A stretch of DNA of 64,000 nucleotides, taken from IMG/VR virus record IMGVR_UViG_3300045902_000324, positions 33,463 to 97,462 of that record; one strand, 5' to 3'. This DNA comes from a virus. The notes below the pieces were generated by a model. The model was not told the origin of the DNA, did no database searches, and worked only from the letters and a program-made list of their open reading frames with translations. A program made the translations under genes and the position numbers. Of this stretch, positions 13,995 to 63,717 are shown piece by piece (position 1 is the stretch's first letter; the number at the start of each line of letters is the position of its first letter).

Positions 13995-14007
13995 TACCCA
14001 GCGGGCG

Positions 14008-35851: not shown

Positions 35852-37075
35852 CTAAGGGGTTTCTGGTTCTGTCGTTGATTGCGGTTCAGGAGTTTGCTCC
35901 GGCTCCGGCGGTGCCTCATTTTCTGTGGGCACTCGTGCATCACCGGGTAACGGTTTTGCCACAGCGCCCGGTGTCTTGATTTTCAGGAATCTTTCGATCA
36001 GGTTGATTGTTGGCGGCGTGTACTCTCGATCGCCTTGCCAGTCCTGCCCGTCAATCTTGGCAACTTCGACATGAGCGTGCGGGCCAGTAGACGTACCTGC
36101 CTCCGGCGTTCCGTTGTCTGCGCCAGTGGTGCCTAGCAAAGTGCCGGGTTTCACCTCGCCATCTGGCACGTCAATCGTCTTCATGTGGCACACCTGCACC
36201 ATGTGCCCGCCTTCTTTCGGGAGCAGCAGCAAGACTTGTCCACATCCTCCTGTCTCAGCCGGGGTGCGAGTCTTTGCAGTGCCCGCAAATGGCATGAAAA
36301 TTTGAAAGCTTCCGCCGATGTCCACACCGTTGTGCATTGACGGCTGACCCGTCACAGGGTGCGTTCCCCGAAATCGCATGGTGTCCGTCACCTTCAACAC
36401 ACCTTGAGGCGAGTTGAAATCGATCAGCGACTCAACGCGAGTACCTTTGAAAGGATCGCCCGTGAATCCATCCGCAATGACATCGACTATGGCGTTCGAC
36501 GTATCGACTGGCACTGTGGCAATCCCCTGCACCAGCGGATACAGTACGCGCAGCCACAACGTCAGAATGACGATCGCCATCAGCATGTGCCGCATCAGCA
36601 CAAACTTTGACATGTAGCGCTTTTTGTTGACGAGCGCTTCAACCAACGTCTCCACCCAGGCGACAGACTCTTGCAACGGAGCCTGCACTTGAGCTAGATG
36701 TGCCGCCATGCGCGACTCTATATCGTTAGCGACTCCTTCAAGGTAGTCACCTCGCCCAGCCAAACGCTTTTTCTCAAAGTGCTGACGAATAGATTGTTGT
36801 CGCGCTTTACGACGAGCCTCTTTAGCCGCAGCAGCACTTGTCTCTTCAGCAAACGTTTCCATGTCTATCCAGTCGAAGCCCACAGACTCCGCCTGGTAGT
36901 CGTCAGTGTACCAGTTGGCAGGATACTCCTCTGCTACAACTTCAGCGTCACGAACGTCTTCTGGCGCATCATCGATCTCGCGGAAATCGGTGACACGTCT
37001 TGACGTATCTTTTGGTGCGGGCGTTACTGGCTCGAACGTTACGTCCTGAATGTCTGGGGGCTTAACTTTTGGCAT
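35852..37075 (-). CDS. Membrane-anchored M23 peptidase 2
   Basis: 407 residues. Cytoplasmic N-terminal 170 residues are acidic and then Lys/Arg/Ala-rich helical (AAAAKEARRKARQQSI). A membrane helix follows near residues 172-195 (LMAIVILTLWLRVLYPLVQG). The periplasmic part carries an M23 domain: MHNGVDIG, CHMKTIDV and GPHAHVEV. The tail is Pro/Glu-rich (PEPEQTPEPQ). All zinc ligands present. Own promoter at 37100-37130. Confidence 0.87.
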   Translation of the reverse strand: MPKVKPPDIQDVTFEPVTPAPKDTSRRVTDFREIDDAPEDVRDAEVVAEEYPANWYTDDYQAESVGFDWIDMETFAEETSAAAAKEARRKARQQSIRQHFEKKRLAGRGDYLEGVANDIESRMAAHLAQVQAPLQESVAWVETLVEALVNKKRYMSKFVLMRHMLMAIVILTLWLRVLYPLVQGIATVPVDTSNAIVDVIADGFTGDPFKGTRVESLIDFNSPQGVLKVTDTMRFRGTHPVTGQPSMHNGVDIGGSFQIFMPFAGTAKTRTPAETGGCGQVLLLLPKEGGHMVQVCHMKTIDVPDGEVKPGTLLGTTGADNGTPEAGTSTGPHAHVEVAKIDGQDWQGDREYTPPTINLIERFLKIKTPGAVAKPLPGDARVPTENEAPPEPEQTPEPQSTTEPETP

Positions 37076-46197: not shown

Positions 46198-47487
46198 CTA
46201 CGCAACGGGCTGAAGCCGCGTTGCTCCGCTTTTCCCTTGAGCTGTCACCCACAACTTAATGCGGGTGGGGGCAGTCAATGACCCCCTACCAACTCCGCTC
46301 AGACTAAATCCAAGCATCGTCGCTACTTTACGCAGGATGTTGGCAGCGCCATTACAATCCGCGTTGATGTACCAGTTCTGGGCAGTCCTGAACAAGCCTC
46401 GCTTCGTCCGCTTCCCCGATGACTTCCAGCTATCAGGTTTTTCACCGAATGTCGGCAAAAAGTCACCATCCACAAACGATGCTTGAGAGGTATAAGACTC
46501 CTCAGTTTCAACAAACTCTATCCCGTACTGCTCCGCCAGTTGAGCAATCCGCTCTTTTAGCCTTGCAGTTGGGATCTGCACAAACTTCTGATTGGTCTTC
46601 TTGCCCAGGTTGGAGCCGTCCTTTTGCCGCTGGTTCCAGCCAAATACAATCCGACCAATCCGGTTATCAATGCAATGGTCAATCACAATCCTAGCCGCTT
46701 TGTTCACTGCATCACGTATCTGCCGATTGCGCTTCTCAGTGAGTTGTGCAAGCCGCTTTGACCAAAAGCCTTGAGCCTTACCTTCTCTCAGTTTGGCAAT
46801 TTGCTTGTTGTACCAGCGGTTCAACGATTTGAGGTGGAGTCCATCCACAATGAAGCTGGTTCCCACGGTACTGACGCAGGTGAGCCAGTTATTTAATCCC
46901 GAATCGATGCCCAGCACCCGCATCGGGTCTACATCAGTCTGGATGGGGTTCAGTCGATAGACAAACTCAGTGTAGAAACACCCATTGCGCGGCAGAATCC
47001 GCAGTTCCTTGATGTCCTCAAATTTGAGATTGGAGGGCATGGGGACAGTGAACGAATCAATCTGAAACCATACTTTCACTAACTGCCCCAGCGGAACCCG
47101 GATCATCCCATCAATCAGCTTCAGCGCTTGTTTGGGATAGCTGACTACTGCCAACCCTCCCTTCTTGCGGTAATTTGGCATCCTGGGTTTCTCCGCCAGT
47201 TCTCCACCTCGCCACAGTTTCAACAATGCTCGGTAGGACTTAAACGACTCGTAGACCGAAATCAAGGTTTGCTGTGCAGCCTGGGAGTAAAGAGCTTGGA
47301 AGTGCTTACTGGTCTTGTATTCGTAACTCAGGCTGTGTTTGCCAATCCACTGCCCAGTCTTAAAGTGCAGTTGGCGAGCATAGTAGATGCCCTGATTGGT
47401 TAGCTTGTTTGCCTCAGAGCAGACAAAATCCATCACCCCCTTAAGTTCGTTATTGGGGTTGAGCAAAACTTGCTGACATCCAAACAT
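46198..47487 (-). CDS. tnpB: TnpB RNA-guided nuclease, zinc ribbon-lacking subgroup
   Basis: 429 residues from ATG 47487. Catalytic residues: LGIDSGLNN (Asp), FVETEESYTSQASF (Glu) and INADCNGAANILRK (Asp). The central zinc ribbon Cys pairs are absent; the subgroup with TSQASF and GKRTKRGLFR is known to lack them. A frame to 47592 exists but would run into tnpA. Probably active or recently so. Confidence 0.9.
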   Translation of the reverse strand: MFGCQQVLLNPNNELKGVMDFVCSEANKLTNQGIYYARQLHFKTGQWIGKHSLSYEYKTSKHFQALYSQAAQQTLISVYESFKSYRALLKLWRGGELAEKPRMPNYRKKGGLAVVSYPKQALKLIDGMIRVPLGQLVKVWFQIDSFTVPMPSNLKFEDIKELRILPRNGCFYTEFVYRLNPIQTDVDPMRVLGIDSGLNNWLTCVSTVGTSFIVDGLHLKSLNRWYNKQIAKLREGKAQGFWSKRLAQLTEKRNRQIRDAVNKAARIVIDHCIDNRIGRIVFGWNQRQKDGSNLGKKTNQKFVQIPTARLKERIAQLAEQYGIEFVETEESYTSQASFVDGDFLPTFGEKPDSWKSSGKRTKRGLFRTAQNWYINADCNGAANILRKVATMLGFSLSGVGRGSLTAPTRIKLWVTAQGKSGATRLQPVA

Positions 47488-47544
47488 GGTGAGTTTATGC
47501 AACAATTGTCTACAGCATAGCCCAGATAGACAAACAGGTGAACT

Positions 47545-47940
47545 ATGGACTGCCAGAAAAGCCGCAGTGCAACGCATTTGCTGAACTATCACTTTGTCTG
47601 GATTCCTCGGCGACGCAGACCTGTTTTACGAGGAGAAATAGCAAATCGGTGCAGGCAGTTGATATGGGAAGCAGCAGAGGAGATTGATTGTCAAGTTGTG
47701 TCGTTGGCAATTGAGCCGGATCATGTCCACCTCTTTGTTAACTGCCCTCCAACAATTGCGCCCTATCAAATCATCCATCGAATTAAGGGGCGAACTGCAC
47801 GGTTCCTCAGACAGGAATTTCCTAATCCATTAATGAAACTGCCATCCATGTGGACATCCAGTTACTTTGTCTCAACGGCTGGCAATGTTAGCAGTGAAAC
47901 AATTCAGCGCTACATTGAAGCTCAGGGCAAGAGTAATTGA
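47545..47940 (+). CDS. tnpA: IS200/IS605 transposase TnpA (HUH/Y1)
   Basis: 131 residues, full length. HUH motif EPDHVHLFVNCPP and catalytic Tyr in IQRYIEAQG. Divergent from tnpB with 57 bp between the listed starts. All key residues are present. Confidence 0.93.
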   Translation: MDCQKSRSATHLLNYHFVWIPRRRRPVLRGEIANRCRQLIWEAAEEIDCQVVSLAIEPDHVHLFVNCPPTIAPYQIIHRIKGRTARFLRQEFPNPLMKLPSMWTSSYFVSTAGNVSSETIQRYIEAQGKSN

Positions 47941-52497: not shown

Positions 52498-53109
52498 CTA
52501 AGCAAGCACCGTGAACCGAGACAACAATTCTTCTACTTGCTGCTGCTTAGCGGGTGCCAGTAGTTCTCGAACTTTGTGGAAAACATACTCACCGGGTCTA
52601 TCCGACCAACATGTGTCTCGATAAGCTGCGTACTCTACCCGCAACCAGTAGGAATCGCCGGACGTTTCCAGACGGAGGCGGCTAAACCTGCAAGCCCGCT
52701 TCAGGATGGCAAGTTCTACCTCACAAAGCTCTACTCCAATAACGCAGCGCATCGTGTCGTCTGATTCCCACTGTCCGTACCATCCGCTCCACAGTGATCC
52801 TGATTGCAGAGTCATGGTTGGCAACCAATCCAATACTGCCAATCCTCGGCTTGCGTCGTCGTAGAATGCATCGATCTGCTTAATCACTTCCGCACTCTCT
52901 GTCATTCTGTGCTGGTGGTCTGCCAGATGCGCGTCATACCGAGCCTGGATTGCTTCGAGGTCTAGCAAAAGGTCGGTATCGTCAGGGTTTAACTGAAATC
53001 GAGCCGATAGTTCCTTTGCGTCTCGCTTGTCGTTCTCGATAGATTTGTCAGCAGCAGCTAATGCTTGCTTGCAGTTGAAATACCGGGTTCTGAGTTCTGA
53101 GAGTTGCAT
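52498..53109 (-). CDS. Hypothetical protein with coiled-coil start
   Basis: 203 residues. Residues 1-80 are a charged helical pair (LRTRYFNCKQALAAADKSIE, DLEAIQARYDAHL), probably a coiled coil. The rest has LRVEYAAYRDTCWSD. Driven by a TACGATA promoter and divergent from the ParB-like gene. No family recognised. Confidence 0.6.
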   Translation of the reverse strand: MQLSELRTRYFNCKQALAAADKSIENDKRDAKELSARFQLNPDDTDLLLDLEAIQARYDAHLADHQHRMTESAEVIKQIDAFYDDASRGLAVLDWLPTMTLQSGSLWSGWYGQWESDDTMRCVIGVELCEVELAILKRACRFSRLRLETSGDSYWLRVEYAAYRDTCWSDRPGEYVFHKVRELLAPAKQQQVEELLSRFTVLA

Positions 53110-53137
53110 AGTGGTAAGTAGGTGGTTCGATACCCAA

Positions 53138-53167
53138 TATCGTAACTCTGTACATATTTTATGTCAA
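53138..53167 (-). promoter_or_regulatory. Promoter, TTGACA-17-TACGATA type
   Basis: -35 at 53167-53162, -10 at 53144-53138, spacer 17. It lies between divergent genes. Confidence 0.75.
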
Positions 53168-53200
53168 TTGATTGGATCTGGGCACTATCCTCTTTTACCG

Positions 53201-53872
53201 ATGATCCAAGTCTTACCTGCCCAGCAAATATCCCCGTACCGTTTACAGCGGTATAGCGGCAACTCAAAAATCCACACGCCTAAGCAGATTGACCATATCT
53301 GTGGACTCATTACGGAGTTTGGGTTTACTGAACCGATTCATGTAAACGAGAATTACGAAATACTGGCCGGGCACGGTCGGCACATGGCAGCGCTTCAGCT
53401 CAAAATGGCGCTCGTCCCAATCATTCAGATCACGGGGCTAACCGAAAGCCAGCAGCAGACGTACCGTATCGCCCACAATCAGAGTCAACTCAGTACTGGC
53501 TTTGATTCGGACATACTAAAGTCCGAGGTACAAAGTCTGTGCTTCAAAGATTACGGCGTGGGGCTGCTTGGTCTGAGCGATCGCCAGCTCAAAGACTTAA
53601 AAATAACGGTGCCGGAACTACCGGATCTAGACAACCTGTCACTTGAGCCACTGCCCAAGGCACCAGTTGGAGGCAGAGTGTCGTCATCCAGGGTGTCGGC
53701 CCCATCCGCTTCGACCGCTCAGCCTGTTGTGGAGAGAACAGAGAGAATTATCCCCACTGCGGCGGCTATTGTGCCAGAAGCGAGGGAGTACATAGTCATG
53801 CGACTCAAATCCCACGACTGGGATAACGAAACGACAGCAGTCCTTCAGCAAATTGTCTCGCTTCTAGGCTAG
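53201..53872 (+). CDS. ParB/Srx-fold protein 1
   Basis: 223 residues from ATG 53201; earlier in-frame sequence overlaps the divergent gene. Residues 1-110 match the ParB N-terminal fold: VLPAQQISPYRLQRYSGN, FGFTEPIHVNENYEILAGHG, GRHMAALQLKM (the GxGR/H box II) and then IAHNQSQLSTGFD. The C-terminal part is a Ser/Pro linker and a short helix. In phages such free-standing ParB-fold proteins accompany DNA modification or recombination genes; newer work shows many bind or hydrolyse nucleotides. Function not known. Confidence 0.7.
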   Translation: MIQVLPAQQISPYRLQRYSGNSKIHTPKQIDHICGLITEFGFTEPIHVNENYEILAGHGRHMAALQLKMALVPIIQITGLTESQQQTYRIAHNQSQLSTGFDSDILKSEVQSLCFKDYGVGLLGLSDRQLKDLKITVPELPDLDNLSLEPLPKAPVGGRVSSSRVSAPSASTAQPVVERTERIIPTAAAIVPEAREYIVMRLKSHDWDNETTAVLQQIVSLLG

Positions 53873-54454
53873 ACATCCGTCAAGCGACTGCCGCAAATTC
53901 GCATGTATATCTTTCAATCGACGCGATACTGTGACCGGGCTACATCCCATATGGGTAGCAACCTGTTTGTATGTCCACCCCTGAAAATAAATCAGTTCTA
54001 CAATCTGCCGATCCCGTTCAGGCAACTCACCTACCGCTATTTCTACCGATCGGTGTGAATCCTGTATTTCCCTGTCTGGGAAGTCGATTGATCCGGACAG
54101 GGTATCGGTCGAATAGACAACTGTCCTCGCACCTTCACGGGGCGATCGCATTACGTCCATTCCGTCTCTGATAAAGTGGCGGATCTCCCCAGACAAGTGT
54201 TTATATACATAACTGGCAAACGGACACCCGTTATCGGGATCGAACACATCAATCAGGTCAAGCAACTTTAGAGATGCAATCTGATAGAAGTCGCCGTATC
54301 CGTACAAATTAGTCCGCTGTCCAACGCAGCACTGGGATGCAATTCTCTTAACCAGAGGGCTGTTTACCCAGGCAATCTCATTTCGGATATTCAGGTCTGA
54401 CCTTGTTGGCAAATAGGCACGAAACAATTCACGGTTCTTACGGGCGTAGTCCAT
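53864..54454 (-). CDS. Sigma factor of the sigma-70 family (SigF-like)
   Basis: 196 residues from ATG 54454; a start at 54499 would place a terminator hairpin inside the coding region. Region 2: LVKRIASQCC, YGDFYQIASLKLLDLI, PFASYVYKHLSGEIRHFIRD (2.3-2.4). Region 4: LPERDRQIVELIYFQGWTYK, then MGCSPVTVSRRLKDIHANLR. Like group 3 cyanobacterial or SpoIIA-type factors it lacks region 1. It would reprogramme host RNA polymerase to phage promoters. Its 3' end overlaps the ParB-like gene by 9 bp. Confidence 0.87.
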   Translation of the reverse strand: MDYARKNRELFRAYLPTRSDLNIRNEIAWVNSPLVKRIASQCCVGQRTNLYGYGDFYQIASLKLLDLIDVFDPDNGCPFASYVYKHLSGEIRHFIRDGMDVMRSPREGARTVVYSTDTLSGSIDFPDREIQDSHRSVEIAVGELPERDRQIVELIYFQGWTYKQVATHMGCSPVTVSRRLKDIHANLRQSLDGCLA

Positions 54455-54464
54455 TGGATGACCC

Positions 54465-54496
54465 AAAAAAGGAGTGTCCCGGACGCGGGACACTCC
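54465..54496 (-). terminator. Strong terminator just before the sigma gene
   Basis: 11-bp perfect stem (GGAGTGTCCCG / CGGGACACTCC), GACG loop, six T on the minus strand. It ends the small gene at 54519 and lies 10 bases before the sigma factor ATG, so sigma expression may depend on read-through. Confidence 0.85.
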
Positions 54497-54518
54497 CATT
54501 TTGTCATAAGCGTAAACC

Positions 54519-54707
54519 TTAGTAGACCTGACCTTGACGAGTCATATCCCACTTCCCAATCACGCTCTCTAGCGTAACTCGAAGCATTTCAGCATCTCCT
54601 GTCTCTGCGCCTAACGCAGCAGCAACATCATTCACTAGGTTCTTCACTGAATCTTTAACTACGGCAGCCTGGGCCGCGTTTCGCCCTCCGCCTCTATTGC
54701 GTGCCAT
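54519..54707 (-). CDS. Small hypothetical protein
   Basis: 62 residues. Basic N-terminus (MARNRGGGRNAAQAA), helical rest ending TRQGQVY. First gene downstream of promoter 54741-54770, followed by the terminator. No family recognised. Confidence 0.55.
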   Translation of the reverse strand: MARNRGGGRNAAQAAVVKDSVKNLVNDVAAALGAETGDAEMLRVTLESVIGKWDMTRQGQVY

Positions 54708-54740
54708 TTATCCTCCAGATTGTGTTAGCCTTAAGTCTAA

Positions 54741-54770
54741 CATCGTAAACCTGTTGCTTTGAAACGTCAA
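54741..54770 (-). promoter_or_regulatory. Promoter, TTGACG-17-TACGATG type
   Basis: -35 at 54770-54765, -10 at 54747-54741. It drives the gene at 54707 and overlaps the 5' end of the divergent WbqC gene. Confidence 0.7.
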
Positions 54771-55433
54771 CCTGCCAAAGTGATCATGATCACTCAGCCC
54801 ACATATCTGCCGTGGCTGGGGTACTACAGCCGGGTGGCGCGGGCTGACCACCTAATCTACTTAGACGATGTGCAGTGGCGACCACGTTACTTCCAGCATC
54901 GAAACAAGATCAAAACGAAAGACGGAGAGCGCTGGCTGACCCTGCCTGTCGAGAAGCATCAGAGCAGGGCAATGCTCTGCGACGTGCAATTGGCTGATGC
55001 AGACTGGCAATCCGAACATCTGCGGCTCATCCATGATGCGTATCGGAGCAGTCCGTACTTGGATGAACTACCAACGCTTCCACAGCAGAGAAACTTGTGC
55101 GATCTGAACATAGAACTCGACACCTATCTGCTATGTCTATTCGGACTTGACATTCCACGCACGCTGTCTAGCAAAATGAGCACGCATGATGCAAACCCGT
55201 CGGCAAGGCTGGCGGCGCTCACTAAATGCGTAGGCGGCACCCACTACATCGCTGGCGTGGGCAGCAGAGATTACCTGGACGAGTTCGAGTTCACTCGCCG
55301 CGACATAACAGTGATCTGGGACGACTGGAAGCATCCGGTCTATCCACAGATGCATGGTGACTTTATCTCCGGGCTATCCGCAATCGACCTACTTCTTAAT
55401 TGCAATGAATCAGAACGAGCATCATACATTTAA
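54759..55433 (+). CDS. WbqC-like protein 1
   Basis: 224 residues as listed from TTG 54759; ATG 54786 or GTG 54780 are equally possible. WbqC family hallmark at the start: MITQPTYLPWLGYYSRVARA, then DHLIYLDDVQW, HRNKIKTKDGERWLTLPVE and, near the end, YPQMHGDFISGLSAIDLLLN. WbqC proteins occur in O-antigen and other sugar clusters; I know of no firmly established reaction. First gene of a cassette with a PIG-L deacetylase and a second WbqC. Confidence 0.82.
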   Translation: MKRQPAKVIMITQPTYLPWLGYYSRVARADHLIYLDDVQWRPRYFQHRNKIKTKDGERWLTLPVEKHQSRAMLCDVQLADADWQSEHLRLIHDAYRSSPYLDELPTLPQQRNLCDLNIELDTYLLCLFGLDIPRTLSSKMSTHDANPSARLAALTKCVGGTHYIAGVGSRDYLDEFEFTRRDITVIWDDWKHPVYPQMHGDFISGLSAIDLLLNCNESERASYI

Positions 55434-56049
55434 GCGAGTGCTGGCGGTGGTCGCCCACGGGGATGACGAGGTGATCGGCTGCGGCGGCACCCTGGCCACG
55501 CTGAGCGATCGCGGGTCTTCTGTAATCGCAGTGATCTGCACGGGGCGTGGTCTGGACGAGGAGACGGATGCAGCAGCCACCCGTCTTGGTATTGAGAGCA
55601 TGATTCTGCCAATCACAGTAGACATGAACCTGTACGGCTATGGTGTAGCACGACTGGCGGACACCATTCTGGAGCACATCAGAAGGATTCGCCCATCCTT
55701 GATCATCACGCATTCAAGACATGACGTTAACCAAGACCACCGGGCTGTACATGACGCGGTGCTGGTGGCTGCGCGACCGCCTACTACAGATGCCCAACTG
55801 TGGGCATTCCGTGGCGAGGGATCTGACTGGGGCTGCGGGTCGTTTGGCACGTTCACTCCAACTATCTTTTTCGACATATCCAACGTGCTATACCGCAAAA
55901 CACATGCTCTGTCCGCCTATGAGAGCCAGCTCAAGTCAGCCCCACACCCACGAGCGATCGATAACGTTCGGACGCAGGCTAGATACTGGGGGTCGATAGC
56001 GGGCGTTTCTGCCGCAGAACCATTCGAGCTATTGAGAGCAATCCATTGA
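55405..56049 (+). CDS. PIG-L family N-acetylsugar deacetylase
   Basis: 214 residues from ATG 55405, overlapping the WbqC stop by 29 bp. Catalytic motifs: VVAHGDDEVIGCGG (the AHxDDE zinc and base motif), and HSRHDVNQDHRAVHDA (third zinc His). PIG-L/LmbE enzymes remove the N-acetyl group from GlcNAc-type sugars, free, lipid-bound or UDP-linked. The enzyme could make a free amino sugar which a neighbour then acylates. The 3' end overlaps the second WbqC start (TTGA). Confidence 0.88.
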   Translation: MNQNEHHTFKRVLAVVAHGDDEVIGCGGTLATLSDRGSSVIAVICTGRGLDEETDAAATRLGIESMILPITVDMNLYGYGVARLADTILEHIRRIRPSLIITHSRHDVNQDHRAVHDAVLVAARPPTTDAQLWAFRGEGSDWGCGSFGTFTPTIFFDISNVLYRKTHALSAYESQLKSAPHPRAIDNVRTQARYWGSIAGVSAAEPFELLRAIH

Positions 56050-56765
56050 AACTCGCCATCATGCAACCCTGCTACCTGCCGTGGCTGGGGTACTTTGACA
56101 AGATGAATCAAGCCGATATCGTAATCCATTACGACATATCTGCGTGGAGCAAGGGATCTATCTACAACCGAAACCGGATCAGAACTCGCACTGATCAAGG
56201 CTGGTCTTGGCTGACAGTGCCGACCCGTGCCAAGCTAGACACCATTCTCCACGCTGTGGAAATAGACCCCACCAAAACAAACTGGGCGATCAAGCACATC
56301 CGCCACATCGAGATGGAATATGCCAGGGCACCACATAAGACACTCCTCCAGCCCATCGCGTCAGCCCTACTATCTCGACAGTGGACATCTCTTTGCGATA
56401 TGAACATCGCCGCCATTGAAGCGATAGCAGGGCTGCTCATAGACAATCAGGCACCGATGCTCCGAGCCTCTGAGCTTGACATTCATTGGTCAAACGATCG
56501 CACCGAAAAACTGGTGCAAGTCTGCCAGCACATGGGCGCAGACACCTACGTTACTAGCGTGGGAGCTAGTGCTTTATATAATCTAGACGCATTCTCAACG
56601 GCAGGCATCAAGCTTGAGACACGTCAGCTTGGGCTGACTCATGCTCATCCGACATATCCACAGGTGCAGGGTGACTTCATGGAAAACATGTCGGCGCTGG
56701 ACATGCTGCTTCAGGTCGGTGCGGATAAGTCCTGCGAGTTGCTGGCGTCCATACCAGAAATTTGA
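56046..56765 (+). CDS. WbqC-like protein 2
   Basis: 239 residues from TTG 56046, one base into the PIG-L stop. Same signature as the first copy: LAIMQPCYLPWLGYFDKMNQ, DIVIHYDIS, YNRNRIRTRTDQGWSWLTVP and YPQVQGDFMENMSALDMLLQ. Clearly related to WbqC 1 but well diverged, so either old duplication or separate capture. The two may act on related substrates in a deacetylase-acyltransferase type cassette (inference). Confidence 0.82.
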   Translation: MKLAIMQPCYLPWLGYFDKMNQADIVIHYDISAWSKGSIYNRNRIRTRTDQGWSWLTVPTRAKLDTILHAVEIDPTKTNWAIKHIRHIEMEYARAPHKTLLQPIASALLSRQWTSLCDMNIAAIEAIAGLLIDNQAPMLRASELDIHWSNDRTEKLVQVCQHMGADTYVTSVGASALYNLDAFSTAGIKLETRQLGLTHAHPTYPQVQGDFMENMSALDMLLQVGADKSCELLASIPEI

Positions 56766-57109
56766 ACCCGCTTGTCTGGGCACGCTTCTTCTCCCTTCCA
56801 GCCGTAGGGGTGGATGCCGCACACTAGGCGATCGCCACCATGTGGGTTGTTCGACCCTACATAGTCCTTGCAGCCAGCGCACGCCCACATTGGAGCTTGT
56901 TCAGGGCGTACTCGAACAACGACATGCCCAAGAATCTGAGGGAACCCACTATCATACGGACGCACAGGTAAACCAAGGGCATCCCAGAGCTGTTCAACAA
57001 AGCATTCGTCACAAGCTGTCTCGCATCCCTGGGAGCAGAAAGCCAAACAGTTATTCCTAACTTTGACAGACCGCGCAGCGATCGCTCTTAGTCGTTCCGA
57101 AATATCCAT
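56711..57109 (-). CDS. Cys-rich small protein, possible zinc binding
   Basis: 132 residues. Cys clusters CLAFCSQGCETACDEC and CAGCKDYV, then LVCGIHPYGW and EACP. Probably one or two zinc or Fe-S sites. The start overlaps the upstream stop as TAATG; the 3' end overlaps the convergent WbqC gene. No family recognised. Confidence 0.6.
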   Translation of the reverse strand: MDISERLRAIAARSVKVRNNCLAFCSQGCETACDECFVEQLWDALGLPVRPYDSGFPQILGHVVVRVRPEQAPMWACAGCKDYVGSNNPHGGDRLVCGIHPYGWKGEEACPDKRVQISGMDASNSQDLSAPT

Positions 57110-58137
57110 TAAAACAACGTCTCCTGAATCGGCGGTCTATCCGCCATTTCTTTGCCAACCCAGTAGCCAGTCCAGATCTGGTGATACAGGTTTTGAGTGC
57201 TGTCCACAGCGCGATTTTCGATGCGGGATGCCTCCTCAATAAAGTGGATGACACTCCGCCCTTTAGCCCGGCCACGCGAGGTGTGCTGGTCTAGCGCATA
57301 GTCCGGGACTTCTAGTCTCGGCAATTCATCCGACGCCCGGAAAAAGCGATGCGCCCACTCCACAACATGCGTAGTTTGCTTGGATCGGCAGACCATCATC
57401 ACCGCCTGCGCCAGCGGCAGAAAGCAGTCCCCCTTTGTCTTGTCCTTGGCAACGAGCTGGGCGTTCGTCTCCTGGAGCGATCGCATCACGCTGTGGACAG
57501 TCGGATAATTCCCTAGATACGCAGACGCAAACAGGCGCAGTTCAAAGAACAGTAGCGACCACTCGCCCGCAACAGACCGTTTCCGAGCATCTGCTAACGC
57601 CTGCCACTCACATGTCGCCAGGTAATGCTGGAACGGCGTTAGTGGCATGTGCCCTTCCGCCATACCAACAAGCGGAGACGGAGGAGCCAGCGCTGATTCC
57701 GTTTCCCACGGATCGATAGACAGGGACAGCACATCGGCATCGCGAACCATAGAATCGATCTCAGTCGCGTTCTTCAAGGGAACTTCAGCAAACGTACAGC
57801 ACGCATCGCATACCTCACGGGACTTTTTGCTGCGACACAGCATCGACACTAAGTTCGTGTATGGATACATCAAAAATGTCAAGTCTTTGTTGCACTCCAC
57901 ACATAAAGTGTACAGCGCTTGAACTTCGTTTTGCACCCAAATGCTGGACAGTCCAATGTCCTCAACGGCGATAATTCGCATTCGCTTAAGCGCATACTCG
58001 CTGTAACCGGAAATTGCCATCTCGCGTGCCCAGTACAAAGCGTTGTACTCATTGCCGCGCCTGATTTCTTTTTGCAATGCAGATACAACCTCAGTGAGGA
58101 GATATCCGTTAGTCGTGCTAATGGGTCGATAGGGCAT
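57109..58137 (-). CDS. RarA/MgsA C-terminal-like protein without AAA+ core
   Basis: 342 residues. The N-terminal 90 residues match the C-terminal part of RarA/MgsA ATPases: TEVVSALQKEIRRGNEYNAL, YWAREMAISGYSEYALKRM, IIAVEDIGLSS. There is no Walker A or B, so the AAA+ clamp-loader-like core is absent. The rest is helical with a Cys pair (SREVCDACCTF). RarA works with sliding clamps and SSB at stalled forks; the fragment could be a clamp-binding or oligomerisation module serving the phage dnaN. Inference from the domain alone. Confidence 0.65.
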   Translation of the reverse strand: MPYRPISTTNGYLLTEVVSALQKEIRRGNEYNALYWAREMAISGYSEYALKRMRIIAVEDIGLSSIWVQNEVQALYTLCVECNKDLTFLMYPYTNLVSMLCRSKKSREVCDACCTFAEVPLKNATEIDSMVRDADVLSLSIDPWETESALAPPSPLVGMAEGHMPLTPFQHYLATCEWQALADARKRSVAGEWSLLFFELRLFASAYLGNYPTVHSVMRSLQETNAQLVAKDKTKGDCFLPLAQAVMMVCRSKQTTHVVEWAHRFFRASDELPRLEVPDYALDQHTSRGRAKGRSVIHFIEEASRIENRAVDSTQNLYHQIWTGYWVGKEMADRPPIQETLF

Positions 58138-58163
58138 GTGGAATCAGTGATAAGTGATTCGTA

Positions 58164-58194
58164 TATCGTAACTTTTAAGCATTCTTGCAGTCAA
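58164..58194 (-). promoter_or_regulatory. Promoter, TTGACT-18-TACGATA type
   Basis: -35 at 58194-58189, -10 at 58170-58164. Drives the RarA C-terminal-like gene and the Cys-rich gene. Confidence 0.75.
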
Positions 58195-58233
58195 GCGTAT
58201 TAGACTAGGATACGAGAAATTCATTGGAAACCT

Positions 58234-59139
58234 ATGCGCGTATTGATTACAGGCGGCTCCGGCTTCATCGGGTCAAATCTAAATCGGTTCTTTACAGACA
58301 GAGGGCACCAAGTCTATTCGATGGATGTGTTACGGGAGGACGATAACTTCACCACGCTCATTGGGGACGTTCGGAATTACTGCCGTGTCACAGAACTGGT
58401 GGCAGACGCGGATCTCGTACTGCACTGCGCGTCCCCCGTAGGGGTGGTGAACGTCACCTACAACCCGATGCGAACTGCGGATGTCATCGTCACGGGTACA
58501 GTGAACGTGACCAAGGCGTGCGTGATTCACGGGGTACGCCTGATCAACTTTTCCACATCCGAGGTCTACGGCGATCTTGGGCGGGCTGCTTGCGAAACGG
58601 ACAACTGTATTCTCCGCACCGACTCCCCTCGCTGGGTTTACGCCAGCGCCAAACTAACGGCTGAACACGTCGCTCAGTCTTGGGATCGTTCGACCACAGT
58701 TCGCCTGTTTAACGCAGCGGGGCCTGGTCAGGCGCAGGACATGGTTATCCCGCGCTTTATAACGGCGGCAAGGGCAGGCGATCCTCTACAGCTTTACGGC
58801 GGAGGCGGGCAAACTCGATGCTTTACCCACATACAGGACGTGTGCGAGGCGATCTATCGTCTCGCTGATACCGACGCCTCGTGTGGTCATGTGGTCAACG
58901 TGGGCAACCCTATGAACTCTACGACAATGATGAAGCTGGCAAAGCTCATTATTCAAAAGACGGGTGCCAGCTTGGATCAGCTTTACTACGCGCTCGGTAG
59001 AGAAGAGGGTGATATAGCGTTTCGAGAACCGAATATCGGAAAACTAAGGCGGCTGACCGGATGGCAGCCGCCTACGTCATTAGACCAGATTCTCACTGAC
59101 GCTGTGGACAGTGCGCGATCGCTCAGTCGGGCAAGCTAG
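58234..59139 (+). CDS. NAD-dependent sugar epimerase/dehydratase (extended SDR)
   Basis: 301 residues. Rossmann motif ITGGSGFIGSNL at the N-terminus, then STSEVYGDLG with the catalytic Thr/Ser, and YASAKLTAEH with the YxxxK pair. The C-terminal part contains LYGGGGQTRCFTHIQDVCEA, typical of UDP-glucose 4-epimerase or UDP-GlcA decarboxylase-like enzymes. It should remodel a nucleotide sugar. Substrate cannot be told from the sequence. Divergent from the RarA-like gene. Confidence 0.87.
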   Translation: MRVLITGGSGFIGSNLNRFFTDRGHQVYSMDVLREDDNFTTLIGDVRNYCRVTELVADADLVLHCASPVGVVNVTYNPMRTADVIVTGTVNVTKACVIHGVRLINFSTSEVYGDLGRAACETDNCILRTDSPRWVYASAKLTAEHVAQSWDRSTTVRLFNAAGPGQAQDMVIPRFITAARAGDPLQLYGGGGQTRCFTHIQDVCEAIYRLADTDASCGHVVNVGNPMNSTTMMKLAKLIIQKTGASLDQLYYALGREEGDIAFREPNIGKLRRLTGWQPPTSLDQILTDAVDSARSLSRAS

Positions 59140-59287
59140 TGAACGTGCAGCCTGGGGGCGGCGTCTGCGGATAGGGCGGGCACTGCTCTGAGGCTACACC
59201 GGGCTGGACAAGAGCGCTCAATACGGTCAAGAAGAACACAAAACTCCTCGTCAGGGCGATTGCGGTAGCCACTAAATTGTTTACCAT
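59123..59287 (-). CDS. Small secreted or membrane-associated protein
   Basis: 54 residues from ATG 59287 with AGAGAGG upstream. A hydrophobic N-terminal helix (LTRSFVFFLTVLSALV) followed by GVASEQC and a Pro-rich tail: a signal peptide pattern. Its end overlaps the epimerase 3' end by 17 bp. Last gene of the nblA operon. No family recognised. Confidence 0.5.
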   Translation of the reverse strand: MVNNLVATAIALTRSFVFFLTVLSALVQPGVASEQCPPYPQTPPPGCTFTSLPD

Positions 59288-59372
59288 GAACAAACCTCTC
59301 TATGGGGTATCGCCTGGGTTTCTGTCAAAAATCGCCCAGGCGGTTTACTCGGACTACAAAACTAGTCGATAA

Positions 59373-59519
59373 TCAACAGAACAATCGACGGAACACCTCA
59401 CCTGCGATCGCCAACATTTCTACTGCAACCCATCCCCAGCCGCCAATTCTGCGCTCGTGGTCAGCTATTCTTTCGTTCGCAACCTGTAGAGCGATCGCCC
59501 GTATCTCGTCTGGGGTCAT
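59373..59519 (-). CDS. Small hypothetical protein
   Basis: 48 residues. ATG 59519 overlaps the nblA stop (ATGA). Amphipathic, Trp-containing helix (DEIRAIALQVANERIADHE). Unknown function, co-translated with nblA. Confidence 0.55.
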   Translation of the reverse strand: MTPDEIRAIALQVANERIADHERRIGGWGWVAVEMLAIAGEVFRRLFC

Positions 59520-59698
59520 GTGCCTCCTCCAAGCTTCTGACGCAACAACGCCTTGCACGTGGCATCCTTAATCATCATCTGTTCGTACAGTTTCACTAAG
59601 AAGTGTTGAGCCTGCTCACGGCTCATGCCCTGGACAGTGGATTCAAACGACCGCAAACTGAATTGTTGCTCTAACGTAAGTTCTATTTTTCCGCTCAT
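59516..59698 (-). CDS. nblA: NblA-like phycobilisome degradation protein
   Basis: 60 residues, the usual NblA length. It reads IELTLEQQFSLRSFESTVQG, then MSREQAQHFLVKLYEQMMIK and DATCKALLRQ, matching the NblA consensus (SLEQQFSIRSF...AQxFLVKLYEQMxxREATY). NblA targets phycobilisomes for ClpCP-type proteolysis. Phage copies in freshwater cyanophages are thought to free amino acids or reduce light capture during infection. ATG 59698 overlaps the previous stop (TGATG). It is the clearest indicator of a cyanobacterial host. Confidence 0.93.
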   Translation of the reverse strand: MSGKIELTLEQQFSLRSFESTVQGMSREQAQHFLVKLYEQMMIKDATCKALLRQKLGGGT

Positions 59699-59979
59699 CA
59701 AAAATCCTCCGAATCACATCCAACACCGGAGCCAATCAACAATCGAAAGTACCCAGCCGCGATACTTTCATCGAAATCACCAAACTCAGGCGGCACTGCT
59801 CCATACTTAGCGGGCGATCGCATTAGTCCACAGCTCCAGCGATCGCCATCGTCTTCGAGGCACGGACACTGTGGATGCTTACCAAACAATTCGAGGCTTA
59901 CGGAACACTGCTCGGCTAGGCAACAGAGTCCACAACCGTTGCAAGGCAATCCGTGTTCTGGTTTAGAGGGTTTCTGCAA
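59698..59979 (-). CDS. Cys-rich protein, possible Fe-S or zinc binding (YkgJ-like)
   Basis: 93 residues. LPCNGCGLCCLAEQCS, then PQCPCLEDD and WSCGL: the CxxCxxCC pattern of YkgJ-type metal-binding proteins. Upstream of and coupled to nblA. Role unknown; redox or metal chaperone is conceivable. Confidence 0.6.
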   Translation of the reverse strand: MQKPSKPEHGLPCNGCGLCCLAEQCSVSLELFGKHPQCPCLEDDGDRWSCGLMRSPAKYGAVPPEFGDFDESIAAGYFRLLIGSGVGCDSEDF

Positions 59980-60217
59980 TTTTCTTCAGTGCCATAGTAA
60001 GCACCATGATTGTCTGGTCTTCAAGTTTTCTGAACCAAAGGATCGATTCTCGGCTCAAAGCCGTGTTGAAATTTGTACACAGATCGTCTGGTGCCATTCG
60101 AAGATCGACTGGTGTCTGAATCCAATCGACAAGAACGCCAATCATTAGGACTTTTTGATACGACGTGTCTCCTAGGGCATTAGGTTCTACTGCTGTGGAC
60201 GCGGTTGAAACAGTCAT
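59963..60217 (-). CDS. Hypothetical protein
   Basis: 84 residues, first gene of the nblA operon. Contains YQKVLMIGVLVDWIQTPVDL and MVLTMALKKIAETL. No motif recognised. Overlaps the next gene by 17 bp. Confidence 0.5.
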   Translation of the reverse strand: MTVSTASTAVEPNALGDTSYQKVLMIGVLVDWIQTPVDLRMAPDDLCTNFNTALSRESILWFRKLEDQTIMVLTMALKKIAETL

Positions 60218-60242
60218 GGGTAATTAAGTGATTCGTTTCGTA

Positions 60243-60272
60243 TATCGTAACTTTGATGCTCTATTAGGTCAA
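60243..60272 (-). promoter_or_regulatory. nblA operon promoter, TTGACC-17-TACGATA
   Basis: -35 at 60272-60267, -10 at 60249-60243. Followed after 25 bp by the first gene of the operon. Confidence 0.75.
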
Positions 60273-60284
60273 GTATCCCAGCAA

Positions 60285-60320
60285 TAAAAAAGGACTGACC
60301 AGAAAACCCCCCGTCAGTCC
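60285..60320 (-). terminator. Intrinsic terminator after the UDP-sugar dehydrogenase gene
   Basis: Stem GGACTGAC / GTCAGTCC, loop of 13, six T on the minus strand. It separates this gene from the nblA operon promoter. Confidence 0.8.
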
Positions 60321-60371
60321 CTTCACTTTTCACCTGAGTTCATCGTTACACGCTGGTTTAGCTATGTCAAC

Positions 60372-61622
60372 CTACAAACTCCAATATTGCAATCGATCTG
60401 GTGCAATATCTTGGAAGTGCCCTTCCACATCTGCGAATAGCGTGCCATCTGGTACATGCTCCAGGATGGTCGGAAGCTGCGACCGGAAAACAGAGTGGGC
60501 ACACAGGACGACTACTGCGGTCAGTCCGTGCGCGATGTTTAGTATGGAAGCTAGGTCTAATGGATAGAAACCGTTTTCCTGCAATGCATCTGGGCACACC
60601 ACTGGGTCATACAAATAACATTTCTCAATCGACGATGCGATCGCCAGCGCCATGCTGTTGCGCGTATCCCGCACGTTCGGCTTGAACGCGGCACCTAAAC
60701 ACAAAACATTGCCTCCGACGGCTGATACTTCGTCCCTCACCCTCTCGACAATGTAGTCAGCCATCCCATCGTTGCGGCTGCGTGCAGCTTCTACAACGAG
60801 TGGCTGGTCGGGCATGACCTTACGCGCCCAGTCCACAAAGAAAAGCGGGTCTACCGCGATGCAATGCCCCCCAACTAGCCCAGGGTAGAACGAGGCAAAA
60901 TTCCATTTTGTACCGCAAGCATCAAGAACATTCTGCATGTCCACGTCACTGCCGCAAGCGATAGAAAACTCGTTCATTAAAGCAATATTTACGTCTCTCT
61001 GAGCGTTCTCCAGCAGCTTGCACGCCTCCGCCTCCTTAATCGAGCACATGTGGACAGTCGGAGCCACAGATCTGTACAGATCACCAGCCCGTTTCTGGGC
61101 AGACGGGGTGTTCGCGCCGACAACCTTCGTCACCGTGGCAAGTGTGTGCATCATATCGCCTGGATTTACTCGCTCAGGCGAGTATGCCACATCGAAATCA
61201 TTGTGCCTAGCCGTAGAAATTACAGCGAAAACGCAAACGTCCTCTGTCACTCCGGGGTATACGGTGCTTTCCCAGATCACTAACCCACCCCGTGGAACGT
61301 GGCGACCCACAAGTGCTGACGCAGCAACCAACATGCTCAGATCAGGGTTCCGGTCATGATCGACTGGCGTTGGCACACAAACGATGAACACATTGCATCC
61401 ACCCAGGTCTGCTTCATCTGAAGTGATCACCATATCAATCTGTTGCGCTGATTGGAGAGCAGCCCCAGACACCTCCCCGTTTTTGTCATATCCAGACTTC
61501 AGCGCCAATACCCTATCGACGTTGGTATCATACCCAACAACAGTATTGCCCCCATCAAACAGGGCGATCGCCAGAGGCAACCCCACGTAACCCAACCCGA
61601 TAACTGCGATTTTTTCAGCCAT
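60372..61622 (-). CDS. UDP-sugar 6-dehydrogenase (UDP-ManNAc/GlcNAc type)
   Basis: 416 residues, the family length. IAVIGLGYVGLPLAIAL (NAD site), VCVPTPVDHDRNPDL, WESTVYPGVTE, LLENAQRDVNIALMNE, GLVGGHCIAVDPLFF with the catalytic Cys, and LCLGAAFKPNVRDTRNS in the third domain. It oxidises C6 of a UDP-sugar to a uronic acid in two steps. The pattern is nearer the N-acetylhexosamine dehydrogenases (WecC/TviB) than UDP-glucose dehydrogenase. Possible partner of the epimerase and PIG-L enzyme. Confidence 0.87.
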   Translation of the reverse strand: MAEKIAVIGLGYVGLPLAIALFDGGNTVVGYDTNVDRVLALKSGYDKNGEVSGAALQSAQQIDMVITSDEADLGGCNVFIVCVPTPVDHDRNPDLSMLVAASALVGRHVPRGGLVIWESTVYPGVTEDVCVFAVISTARHNDFDVAYSPERVNPGDMMHTLATVTKVVGANTPSAQKRAGDLYRSVAPTVHMCSIKEAEACKLLENAQRDVNIALMNEFSIACGSDVDMQNVLDACGTKWNFASFYPGLVGGHCIAVDPLFFVDWARKVMPDQPLVVEAARSRNDGMADYIVERVRDEVSAVGGNVLCLGAAFKPNVRDTRNSMALAIASSIEKCYLYDPVVCPDALQENGFYPLDLASILNIAHGLTAVVVLCAHSVFRSQLPTILEHVPDGTLFADVEGHFQDIAPDRLQYWSL

Positions 61623-61675
61623 GCCTGCTAATATCGAAATGTCCTTTATTCATTTTGTCATCTAAAAGTACAACT

Positions 61676-62320
61676 ATGGAACTATCCGATATCGAATCGT
61701 ATTACTCCAATCTATTCAATGAGCACGGCCCGAGTCATCTCGCCATTTCTTGGAAAGAAGATCGATCTAGTACAACCATGTACCAAGTCATGGCTGAAGA
61801 AGGAGGCAGCGACGCTATACAGGACAAGAAAATCTTGGACTTTGGTTGCGGATATGGTGGCTTTCTTGGGTTTCTGCTGGAACACTTGATTATTCCACGC
61901 CAGTACACCGGGGTCGAAATCGTACCAGAGTTCATCGAATACGCCAGCAACAAATACGCCATCAACAAATATCCGTTTGAGTTCATGCGACAGCATGAAG
62001 TTTCCAATGACAGAACATTCGATCATGTGTTCATTAACGGAGTGTTCCCGCTGCGACGCGGCTCCGATGAGGAGAGCAGGCTTACGTGGCAGAACACAGT
62101 GCGGTGGTGCCTAGAGCGATCGCCCGCAGTGTCGTTCGATTTCTTCTCCGTTGCGTCGGACTTCAGAAACCCAGATCGCTACTACGAACACCCTGGCATA
62201 GTGTGGGACTTCCTCAAGTCAATCGATGCACATGGACTCGTCAACATCAGGAACAACTATTTGATGTCTGACGCTCACAAGTGCCCATTCAGTTTTACTG
62301 TGACGTTCAAATCCTCATAG
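61676..62320 (+). CDS. Class I SAM-dependent methyltransferase
   Basis: 214 residues from ATG 61676. Rossmann motif I KILDFGCGYGGFLGFLLEHL, then YTGVEIVPEFIEYA (motif II acidic) and HVFINGVFPL. No DNA-methylase DPPY motif. Related small methyltransferases act on sugars, lipids or small molecules. Divergent from the dehydrogenase; ends convergently with the glycosyltransferase with a 6-bp overlap. Confidence 0.72.
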   Translation: MELSDIESYYSNLFNEHGPSHLAISWKEDRSSTTMYQVMAEEGGSDAIQDKKILDFGCGYGGFLGFLLEHLIIPRQYTGVEIVPEFIEYASNKYAINKYPFEFMRQHEVSNDRTFDHVFINGVFPLRRGSDEESRLTWQNTVRWCLERSPAVSFDFFSVASDFRNPDRYYEHPGIVWDFLKSIDAHGLVNIRNNYLMSDAHKCPFSFTVTFKSS

Positions 62321-63085
62321 CGGAATCGAAATCTGTATCTGGTAGTCGTGCTTCGCTTTAGCCCGCATAGCACCAACCTTCTGCGAGACGATGCGGGGGC
62401 CAAACAGATCCCGCATTAACTCAAATTCAAACTTAAGCTGACTCAGGTTCCGGTAATTGGCGTTACCCTCAGTGCCAGTAGCGGTTTCATTCGCCTCGAT
62501 TGCAAACCTATCATCCATAAAGGCTGTCCGGTGATGGTAGGCGTTGAGACAGCTTATCCAGAAATCCAGGTAGCACTTGATCTTTGGGTTGAACTTCAAC
62601 TTAGACCCGGACAAGATTCCCATGCCACAGAAATACATCCGTCCGGTTAGCCGAAACGGTCGCTGACCCCCATAACTCAGCGGGTTGCTGGTCGATGCAC
62701 CAGCCCCATACAAGAACGCGCCCATGTCGTGGCACATGTCCGCCCAGTGCTGTACCAGAGGTTCTGCGAGTTCTGGATCACATTCGCGTGCAGCCTTTTT
62801 TGTCTCAAAGCACCGAGTTATGCCTGTCACATCATCATCCAGAAAAAACACATCTCCACCGAGCAGATCTAGCACCCATTGTGCTTTTCTGCTTAGTCCG
62901 CCATCTACTCCGGTTTCAACCTCGTCCGGGTGTGCCAGGATCTCCACGCCAGGATTGTAGTGTCGGTATACGTCTGCCTGTGATTCTGCCACGCATAGCA
63001 CAGCATTCTTGAATGTACGCAATGTAGTGACGCGATCGGCACGCCCTCGACTCAAAATAACGGTTGTCTGCTTAGCTGCACCCAT
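62315..63085 (-). CDS. GT-A glycosyltransferase resembling TET/JBP-associated glycosyltransferases
   Basis: 256 residues. N-terminal SRGRADRVTTLRTF, then VYRHYNPGVEILAHP, GLSRKAQWVLDLLGGDVFFL and FLDDDVTGITRCF with the DxD/DDD metal site; FMDDRFAIEANE may carry a second acidic motif. The order matches TAGT-type enzymes, which glycosylate modified cytosine in phage DNA. The family call is from pattern memory. It is coupled to a ParB-like gene (TGATG), a partner common in DNA modification loci. No TET/JBP gene is in the window. Confidence 0.6.
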   Translation of the reverse strand: MGAAKQTTVILSRGRADRVTTLRTFKNAVLCVAESQADVYRHYNPGVEILAHPDEVETGVDGGLSRKAQWVLDLLGGDVFFLDDDVTGITRCFETKKAARECDPELAEPLVQHWADMCHDMGAFLYGAGASTSNPLSYGGQRPFRLTGRMYFCGMGILSGSKLKFNPKIKCYLDFWISCLNAYHHRTAFMDDRFAIEANETATGTEGNANYRNLSQLKFEFELMRDLFGPRIVSQKVGAMRAKAKHDYQIQISIPL

Positions 63086-63717
63086 CAGAAACTAATCTCT
63101 CCGATTTCCTGTTCCGCCATTTCGCTGCGGCTGTTCCACATATCTGTGAAACGGGCAACGGTCAAAACCCTTCCGGTGCCGACCATCTTGTTCGCTTGAA
63201 ACCCACGCTCACGTCTAAGCTGTAGCACCGTGGTCAGAAACGCCCAGTCTGTCTCGTTGTCCGAGATGATCAGCACATAATCGTGCTTCTCTCCGAACCT
63301 GGGCACAATCGGAAAACTCGGCTCATCTGAAACTTCCTTGGATAACTTGTTCTCCAGCGCGACGATTGCTGTGGGCGCAAAGCCGGGCGGAATATCCGAA
63401 CACTTTTTCAGCCCAGCCAACAGCCGATCATCATCCCACACAGCATTTCTGCCGATCTGATTGTCTGATAGCGCCCGCTCCACAGCCGTCGTATCGTCGT
63501 CTTCTACGAACGTTACGTCGATAGTATCCCAGCCCAGCTTGCGTGCAGCCATCACCATGTGGTTGCCAATTAACACCTTCATGCTGCTGCGTTGTACGAC
63601 AGCGGGGCGGTGCTGCCCAAATTTCTGAAGCGACTGCACGATCTCCGCTACTTTACCTTTGTTTGCATTGTCTGGGTCTAGTACCAGGGTATCGAGGGCG
63701 ATCGACTCTACTTCCAC
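63085..63717 (-). CDS. ParB-fold protein 2
   Basis: 210 residues from GTG 63717. ParB N-terminal signature: LDTLVLDPDNANKGKVAEIV, FGQHRPAVVQ, VLIGNHMVMAARKLGW (box II variant GNH), ALSDNQIGRNAVWDD. The C-terminal 90 residues (FGEKHDYVLIISDNETDWAF) are different from ParB 1. Free ParB-fold proteins next to glycosyltransferases and methyltransferases are typical of phage base-modification loci. Coupled to the glycosyltransferase. Confidence 0.75.
   Translation of the reverse strand: MEVESIALDTLVLDPDNANKGKVAEIVQSLQKFGQHRPAVVQRSSMKVLIGNHMVMAARKLGWDTIDVTFVEDDDTTAVERALSDNQIGRNAVWDDDRLLAGLKKCSDIPPGFAPTAIVALENKLSKEVSDEPSFPIVPRFGEKHDYVLIISDNETDWAFLTTVLQLRRERGFQANKMVGTGRVLTVARFTDMWNSRSEMAEQEIGEISF

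Follow-up and report, generated by a model that had tools for sequence, protein, structure and literature searches.

What would a virus of bacteria do with a glycosyltransferase gene that is coupled to a ParB-fold gene and set among genes for the tailoring of sugars? This question is raised by 64 kb (hereafter the window, the whole stretch of DNA that was analysed) of the 97.5-kb record IMGVR_UViG_3300045902_000324, which comes from an uncultured virus of bacteria. The initial annotation had read the locus as a pathway that puts an unusual sugar on phage DNA (or on a surface polymer), and our profile searches recovered all the genes it had named, at or near where it had placed them. Together, the genes suggest that phage DNA receives sugar in a new way, although the enzyme that usually prepares the base was not found. 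In the initial reading, the membership of the TAGT family, the coupling with ParB and the tie with WbqC and PIG-L stand, whereas the TET/JBP or hydroxymethylase gene was not found and the dehydrogenase and the SDR are attached to the pathway by their proximity in this record only.

The core enzyme is the TAGT GT-A glycosyltransferase (62315..63085, minus strand), which exceeds the curated cut-off of PF20691 (27.5 bits) with a score of 58.1 bits (E=1.5e-15) and so belongs to that family. In the family alignment it keeps the DDD (residues 83-85) and the other invariant columns, and its AlphaFold model (pLDDT 87) matches the fold of GT-A enzymes such as GnT-I. Its predicted function is the transfer of a sugar onto DNA bases. 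Single-sequence searches of viral contigs with this protein, the second WbqC-like protein and TerL gave no matches because the phage is remote from known phages; the relatives were reached by way of a weak match in phage Javan291 (E=0.7), a protein that Pfam identifies as a TAGT and that also has a ParB gene upstream, and then through the family alignment. The nearest relatives share 31-37% identity with the window enzyme.

The ParB-fold gene (63085..63717, minus strand; PHROG ParB E=1e-24) lies directly upstream of the TAGT gene on the same strand and overlaps it by 1 nt, as a two-gene module. The coupling noticed in the window is found again in 87 of 88 other non-redundant phage loci with at least 700 bp of upstream sequence, where a ParB gene stands within two genes upstream of the TAGT gene, mostly overlapping it, and the pair is usually followed by terminase-like genes. 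The window partner has a Pfam score below the cut-off (E=1.7e-4) and a Box-II-like region that reads GNHMVMA, without the usual arginine, and its best phage matches are the ParB domains of DNA methylases. A related ParB domain precedes the TET/JBP gene of phage Nigel, ahead of the terminase. The second ParB-fold gene, announced near 53.2 kb, was confirmed at 53027..53872 on the plus strand (PHROG ParB E=9e-35) and matches an HMM of the TAGT-partner ParBs (E=7e-23). The recurrence of the ParB-fold partner with modifying enzymes as diverse as TAGT, GT-B, TET and DNA methylase points to a general role in guiding or coupling.

The tailoring genes lie at most 9 kb from the TAGT gene. WbqC-like protein 1 (54759..55433, plus strand; PF08889 E=6e-57), a PIG-L/LmbE N-deacetylase with an AHGDDE motif (55354..56049, plus strand, start probably at 55405; PF02585 E=1e-19) and WbqC-like protein 2 (56046..56765, plus strand; PF08889 E=1e-53), which overlaps the PIG-L gene by 4 nt, form one run. 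The solved relatives of the PIG-L protein are diacetylchitobiose and BshB deacetylases, and the AlphaFold model of WbqC-like protein 1 (pLDDT 89) has a weak match to the HUP-class nucleotidyltransferases (E=0.02). The divergence of a mixed WbqC alignment was too great for scanning. The supposed UDP-HexNAc-type 6-dehydrogenase (60372..61622, minus strand; Pfam UDPG_MGDP_dh) bears out its name, with a GGHC motif and best matches to the UDP-ManNAcA dehydrogenase 4r16 and to Cap5O, and scores 262 bits against the TviB model, below the cut-off of that model. The so-called sugar epimerase (58234..59139, plus strand) is an extended SDR (PF01370 E=1e-43), but its identity as an epimerase did not hold: it scores about equally well with the models for UXS1/ArnA and for dTDP-glucose dehydratase, its best PDB match is UXS1, and the enzyme may be a nucleotide-sugar epimerase, dehydratase or decarboxylase. 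No relative of the dehydrogenase or of the SDR was found near TAGT in the other loci. The methyltransferase is indeed present, as a class I SAM enzyme (61655..62320, plus strand; PF08242 E=4e-8). All the cassette genes fit into 10.7 kb, on alternating strands and not as one operon; ParB-TAGT and WbqC-PIG-L-WbqC are the only overlapping runs, 6 kb apart on opposite strands.

It is in the relatives that these two runs are joined. The window TAGT falls in a subclade (support 100/94) with PIG-L in six of its ten loci and WbqC in four, against none of the 88 loci outside it, an enrichment whose Fisher values are not literal probabilities, the loci being phylogenetically related and the clade picked by its closeness to the window. 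PIG-L, WbqC, ParB and TAGT are there overlapping genes on the same strand, ahead of terminase-like genes, and the physical coupling of PIG-L and WbqC to ParB-TAGT recurs in several lineages of the subclade; the window itself lacks this four-gene operon. A homologue of the MgsA/RarA C-terminal-domain protein of the window (57109..58137, minus strand; PF12002 E=7e-9) is near TAGT in eight of the ten members. In locus L128, ATP-grasp and decarboxylase genes read by eye in the WbqC slot were left unconfirmed, the ATP-grasp match (E=0.017) being below the cut-off, and are disregarded here.

The association of WbqC and PIG-L with ParB-TAGT, which the initial annotation had found new, is strengthened further by an independent cluster in cultured Vibrio phages. 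V-YDF132 and PG28 carry the order PIG-L-WbqC-HP-MTase-WbqC-GT-ParB, and VH2_2019, whose host V. natriegens is a laboratory strain, has the same cluster, as judged by matches. As in the window, a PIG-L, two WbqC proteins and a methyltransferase accompany a glycosyltransferase coupled to a ParB-fold protein, whereas the Vibrio enzyme is a GT-B (Glycos_transf_1) unrelated to TAGT. Its gene overlaps that of ParB, and the cluster lies ahead of the terminase. Searches for TAGT and TET in V-YDF132 and PG28 found neither, and no restriction-digest data were found in the Vibrio phage papers.

How the acceptor base would be prepared is the point on which the locus departs from expectation. A TET/JBP or hydroxymethylase gene had been expected just outside the window, and neither family was found across the 97.5-kb record: the TET_JBP profile, whose sensitivity rests on one positive control (Nigel, E=4e-8), had no match, and no TS-fold hydroxymethylase was found in this record, which may be incomplete. 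The searches run on about 50 related ParB-TAGT records likewise found neither TET/JBP nor the TS fold; in MW202897, the TAGT gene adjoins a TS-fold pyrimidine hydroxymethylase. The ends of the contig join in frame, which would agree with a circular, complete genome, although no homologue of the joined ORF was found. If the record is circular, and not otherwise, the TerL gene (record positions 13254-14735) would be in the loose vicinity of ParB-TAGT; the window pair is not located just ahead of terminase genes.

The model we propose starts from what is directly established, namely what the genes are, how ParB is coupled to TAGT, and that relatives conserve a PIG-L-WbqC-ParB-TAGT operon, and we consider it moderately probable that they form a module for phage DNA hypermodification, in which a ParB-guided TAGT, PIG-L and WbqC act on an amino sugar. 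The ParB-fold protein would bring the coupled TAGT to the phage DNA, and the TAGT would transfer onto the base a sugar that is probably an N-acetylhexosamine or a derivative supplied by the nearby dehydrogenase and SDR. PIG-L, judging by its family, would strip the N-acetyl group from the nucleotide sugar or from the DNA-bound sugar. More speculatively, in view of their weak resemblance to HUP-class adenylyl/cytidylyltransferases, the WbqC proteins might activate an acyl or aminoacyl group for attachment to the amine that PIG-L exposes, and the methyltransferase may cap the product. Several observations count against the model: TET/JBP and the TS-fold hydroxymethylase were found neither in the record nor in the relatives searched, which leaves the acceptor unaccounted for; the cassette genes alternate in strand; the window TAGT has low identity to its nearest relatives; the WbqC fold match is weak; the ParB partner lacks the Box-II arginine; and the dehydrogenase and SDR had no relatives near TAGT in other loci. 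Could the widespread ParB-TAGT pairs glycosylate DNA with no need of TET/JBP or a TS-fold hydroxymethylase, by an undescribed acceptor chemistry, PIG-L de-N-acetylating a DNA-bound amino sugar and WbqC re-acylating it in the window subclade? We offer this extension tentatively and think it rather less probable than not.

DNA is in our best reading the likeliest target of the window pair, because similar ParB domains are found on DNA methylases and beside TET/JBP and because the characterised TAGTs act on DNA. The same facts weigh against the glycosylation of a protein, for example the terminase or another virion protein, to which the module's position beside terminase-like genes in most phages, the lack of any base-hydroxylating enzyme found with ParB-TAGT, and the likeness of the TAGT fold to protein and glycan GT-A enzymes such as GnT-I would lend themselves; we regard a protein target as very unlikely. 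It is only slightly less unlikely that the pair glycosylates DNA by itself with a host UDP-sugar, the dehydrogenase, the SDR and the methyltransferase, and perhaps WbqC and PIG-L, serving other ends. Most ParB-TAGT loci are indeed devoid of nearby sugar genes, and PIG-L and WbqC are confined to the window subclade, but their physical coupling to the pair in several of its lineages, and the compactness of the window cassette, argue otherwise.

Polysaccharide loci are the usual setting of WbqC and PIG-L, and the cassette, with its dehydrogenase, SDR and methyltransferase, might instead alter the O-antigen or capsule of the host or make a decoy, TAGT-ParB being unrelated to it. The mixed strands of the window genes agree with such a role, as do the IMG/VR contigs L014, L015 and L017-L019, in which WbqC occurs with PIG-L and/or a methyltransferase and without TAGT, some of them having GT-B enzymes; in L019, a homologue of the window methyltransferase follows WbqC. 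So does the gut contig MT838042, in which a WbqC match is accompanied by flippase-like, GT2-like, aminotransferase-like and epimerase genes (read by eye), and which was rejected as a phage relative since it resembles a bacterial polysaccharide locus. A surface role, however, would not lead one to expect the arrangement of the closest TAGT relatives, where PIG-L and WbqC share an operon of overlapping genes with ParB-TAGT and terminase-like genes follow; moreover, TAGT is the sole glycosyltransferase among the proteins scanned here (the smallest ORFs left out), which showed no flippase, polymerase or membrane glycosyltransferase near the cassette. We judge this role improbable.

If the DNA hypermodification model holds, sugar-modified DNA of a new class should exist; modifications of this general sort are known to shield phage DNA from restriction and CRISPR nucleases. 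Candidate genes are also at hand in cultured phages of Vibrio and Streptococcus, where the current annotation of PIG-L and ParB genes is lysin/lysis protein or DNA methylase. A literature search found no account of WbqC in phages, and a first functional setting for WbqC proteins could follow.

Among known systems, the phage loci with TET/JBP, TAGT and ParB reportedly described by Iyer et al. in 2013 share with the window the TAGT and ParB-fold genes, ParB standing beside TET in Nigel, whereas our searches detected no TET/JBP in this record or its relatives, and PIG-L and WbqC are added. The TAGTs of T2/T6 are characterised and use DNA as substrate (PMC13216743, PMC13390438). The T2/T6 enzyme, a beta-glucosyl-HMC-alpha-glucosyltransferase (PF20691), has in common with ours the Pfam family and a GT-A fold with DDD, at 17-26% identity, varying with the alignment; the T6 gene has dCMP hydroxymethylase, and not ParB, as a neighbour, whereas the window has a ParB partner and sugar-tailoring genes and no hydroxymethylase was found in its record. 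In the RB69/NP arabinosyl-cytosine phages, as in the window, a phage-encoded sugar-modifying cluster feeds a DNA glycosyltransferase, but the enzymes differ and the acceptor is made by a TS-superfamily enzyme (PMC13390438) not found in our record. The CmoX/CmoY pathway, in which a C5-carboxymethyl handle on the base is elaborated by an amide-forming ligase, has ParBc-domain genes in its neighbourhood like the window and, unlike it, no glycosyltransferase (PMC12783734). Finally, the window PIG-L shares its fold and the AHxDDE motif with the PIG-L/LmbE deacetylases BshB1 and diacetylchitobiose deacetylase, and is placed in a genomic setting that differs from theirs.

The phage module centred on the TAGT glycosyltransferase of the window is real and phylogenetically supported; its most likely product is a DNA base decorated with a tailored amino sugar. 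All the genes named in the initial annotation, which had proposed such a pathway, are present in the window according to gene calls and profile searches. The TAGT (62315-63085, minus strand) was correctly assigned to its family (PF20691, E=1.5e-15) and is the only PF20691 member in the whole record; it retains the DDD motif and 12 other family-invariant columns, and its AlphaFold model, built from 43 aligned sequences at pLDDT 87, resembles GT-A enzymes, among them GnT-I, KfiA and EXTL2. Its start is overlapped by 1 nt by the end of the ParB-fold gene ParB1 (63085-63717, minus strand). WbqC1, PIG-L and WbqC2 are mutually overlapping genes on the plus strand (54759-56765), and the dehydrogenase, the SDR and the methyltransferase lie between these two clusters, on alternating strands.

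The coupling of TAGT to ParB, also proposed in that annotation, is borne out by a wider sample. In Streptococcus phage Javan291 the two genes overlap by 1 nt, two genes before the large terminase gene. Scans with the Javan291 TAGT yielded contigs from bacteria or metagenome bins (six) and from viruses (80 kept), and another 80 rows came from a profile scan with the window TAGT at its head. The non-redundant set comprises 98 TAGT genes (<90% mutual identity), 88 of them with at least 700 bp upstream, and in 87 of these 88 a same-strand ParB-fold gene stands at most two genes upstream. Small- and large-terminase-like genes, assigned from position and length, usually follow. The ParB association was reportedly already noted by Iyer et al. 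in 2013. A tandem order, ParB-TAGT-TAGT, occurs in contig L138 (9240-10726) and about 15 similar loci, where the two TAGTs perhaps make a disaccharide. The Javan291-type loci are without any conserved sugar gene, and a search there for relatives of the window's sugar genes found none.

The main doubt was that the sugar genes lie near the TAGT by chance, and for PIG-L and WbqC it is answered by their conserved presence in related loci. The nearest relatives of the window TAGT (17 contigs, 31-37% identity) form with it a supported clade (100/94), whose loci carry PIG-L, WbqC, ParB and TAGT in this order, overlapping on one strand, often followed by a gene for an MgsA C-terminal domain resembling window 57109-58137 and then by terminase-like genes. 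Of the ten non-redundant clade members, six have PIG-L near the TAGT, four have WbqC there and eight the MgsA_C gene, versus 0/88 elsewhere for each; Fisher values on these counts are descriptive only, because the loci share ancestry. The window holds the same genes, but in two clusters 6 kb apart. The unusual link pointed out initially was thus well seen, and from this comparison of gene neighbourhoods the closeness of PIG-L and WbqC to the TAGT is very probably not accidental. No description of the PIG-L-WbqC-ParB-TAGT operon was found in the literature searched. In the related contig L128 (6958-8881), two other genes occupy the WbqC slot; by eye one looks ATP-grasp-like (Pfam E=0.017, under the cut-off), and this would agree with amide formation as the task of the slot.

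Several observations point to DNA as the target. The characterised TAGTs of T2 and T6 extend glucosylated hydroxymethylcytosine in DNA by a second glucose (PMC13216743, PMC13390438), and in MW202897 the TAGT adjoins a TS-fold pyrimidine hydroxymethylase. Among phage proteins, the window ParB best matches the ParB portions of genes that carry a DNA methylase annotation. In phage Nigel the TAGT-partner ParB profile hits (E=2e-13) the gene preceding TET/JBP, itself two genes before the terminase. The ParB partner is thus common to several DNA-acting enzymes. A survey of the ParB-CTPase fold found methyltransferase-domain fusions to be frequent in phages (PMC12704722). The TET/JBP or hydroxymethylase expected just outside the window was a wrong prediction as far as testable: neither a TET/JBP nor a thymidylate-synthase-fold enzyme was found in the whole 97,462-base record. 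Among 35 viral records and Javan291, many of the records being fragments, neither enzyme was found, nor was the TS fold in 14 more close relatives. The positive control, Nigel, was recovered at E=4e-8, under the curated cut-off, so that divergent dioxygenases could escape the TET/JBP search. These absences leave three options for the acceptor, which may depend on an unrecognised hydroxylase, on a host-made base, or on a new direct glycosylation.

Concerning the sugar, PIG-L deacetylases use N-acetylglucosamine compounds as substrates. A search by sequence for a solved relative of WbqC found none; its model (pLDDT 89) weakly resembles HUP-class nucleotidyltransferases and tyrosyl-tRNA synthetases (best E=0.02), a similarity that at most suggests that WbqC activates or ligates a group onto the freed amine. 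The dehydrogenase belongs to the UDP-N-acetylhexosamine class and the SDR is assignable to the extended family, no finer; both are linked to the other cassette genes by proximity only.

The linear 97,462-base IMG/VR record, of which the window is bases 33463-97462, encodes a phage terminase, head genes, a family A DNA polymerase, helicases and RadC. Its ends join into a single open frame of 202 codons (record L003 1-386 and window 64000-63736, both minus), for which a homologue was searched and not found; this in-frame join hints at a circular, complete genome. If so, a PAPS-reductase-like gene (L003 2841-3857, minus; phrog_424, E=7e-21) at the left end of the record and an additional ParB-domain gene (L003 1339-2445, same strand), both heading toward the contig end, would lie directly upstream of ParB1-TAGT. 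The record also carries a DUF4417 gene (L003 9443-10231, plus; PF14386, E=3e-40), a domain frequently fused to ParB folds in phages (PMC12704722), and the window two TnpB/IS605 OrfB-type genes (18219-19472, plus; 46198-47592, minus) and an adjoining pair of M23-peptidase-domain genes (34450-35718 and 35852-37075, minus), the second under the Pfam cut-off.

A second, independent case is provided by the cultured Vibrio phages V-YDF132 and PG28, to which VH2_2019 is closely related. Immediately before their terminase stand PIG-L, WbqC, an unknown gene, a methyltransferase, WbqC, a GT-B glycosyltransferase and a ParB-fold gene recognised by the TAGT-partner profile (E=1e-15). In the related phages SIO-2 and J26, two adjoining genes are kept at the cluster position, with a WbqC-like annotation in J26. 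In published Vibrio phage papers the PIG-L deacetylase (L006 19330-20007, L007 7711-8388, both Vibrio phage records) is named an endolysin or lysis protein, likely a misannotation. The Vibrio glycosyltransferase differs from that of the window in belonging to another family, GT-B and not TAGT, but it likewise overlaps its ParB-fold gene.
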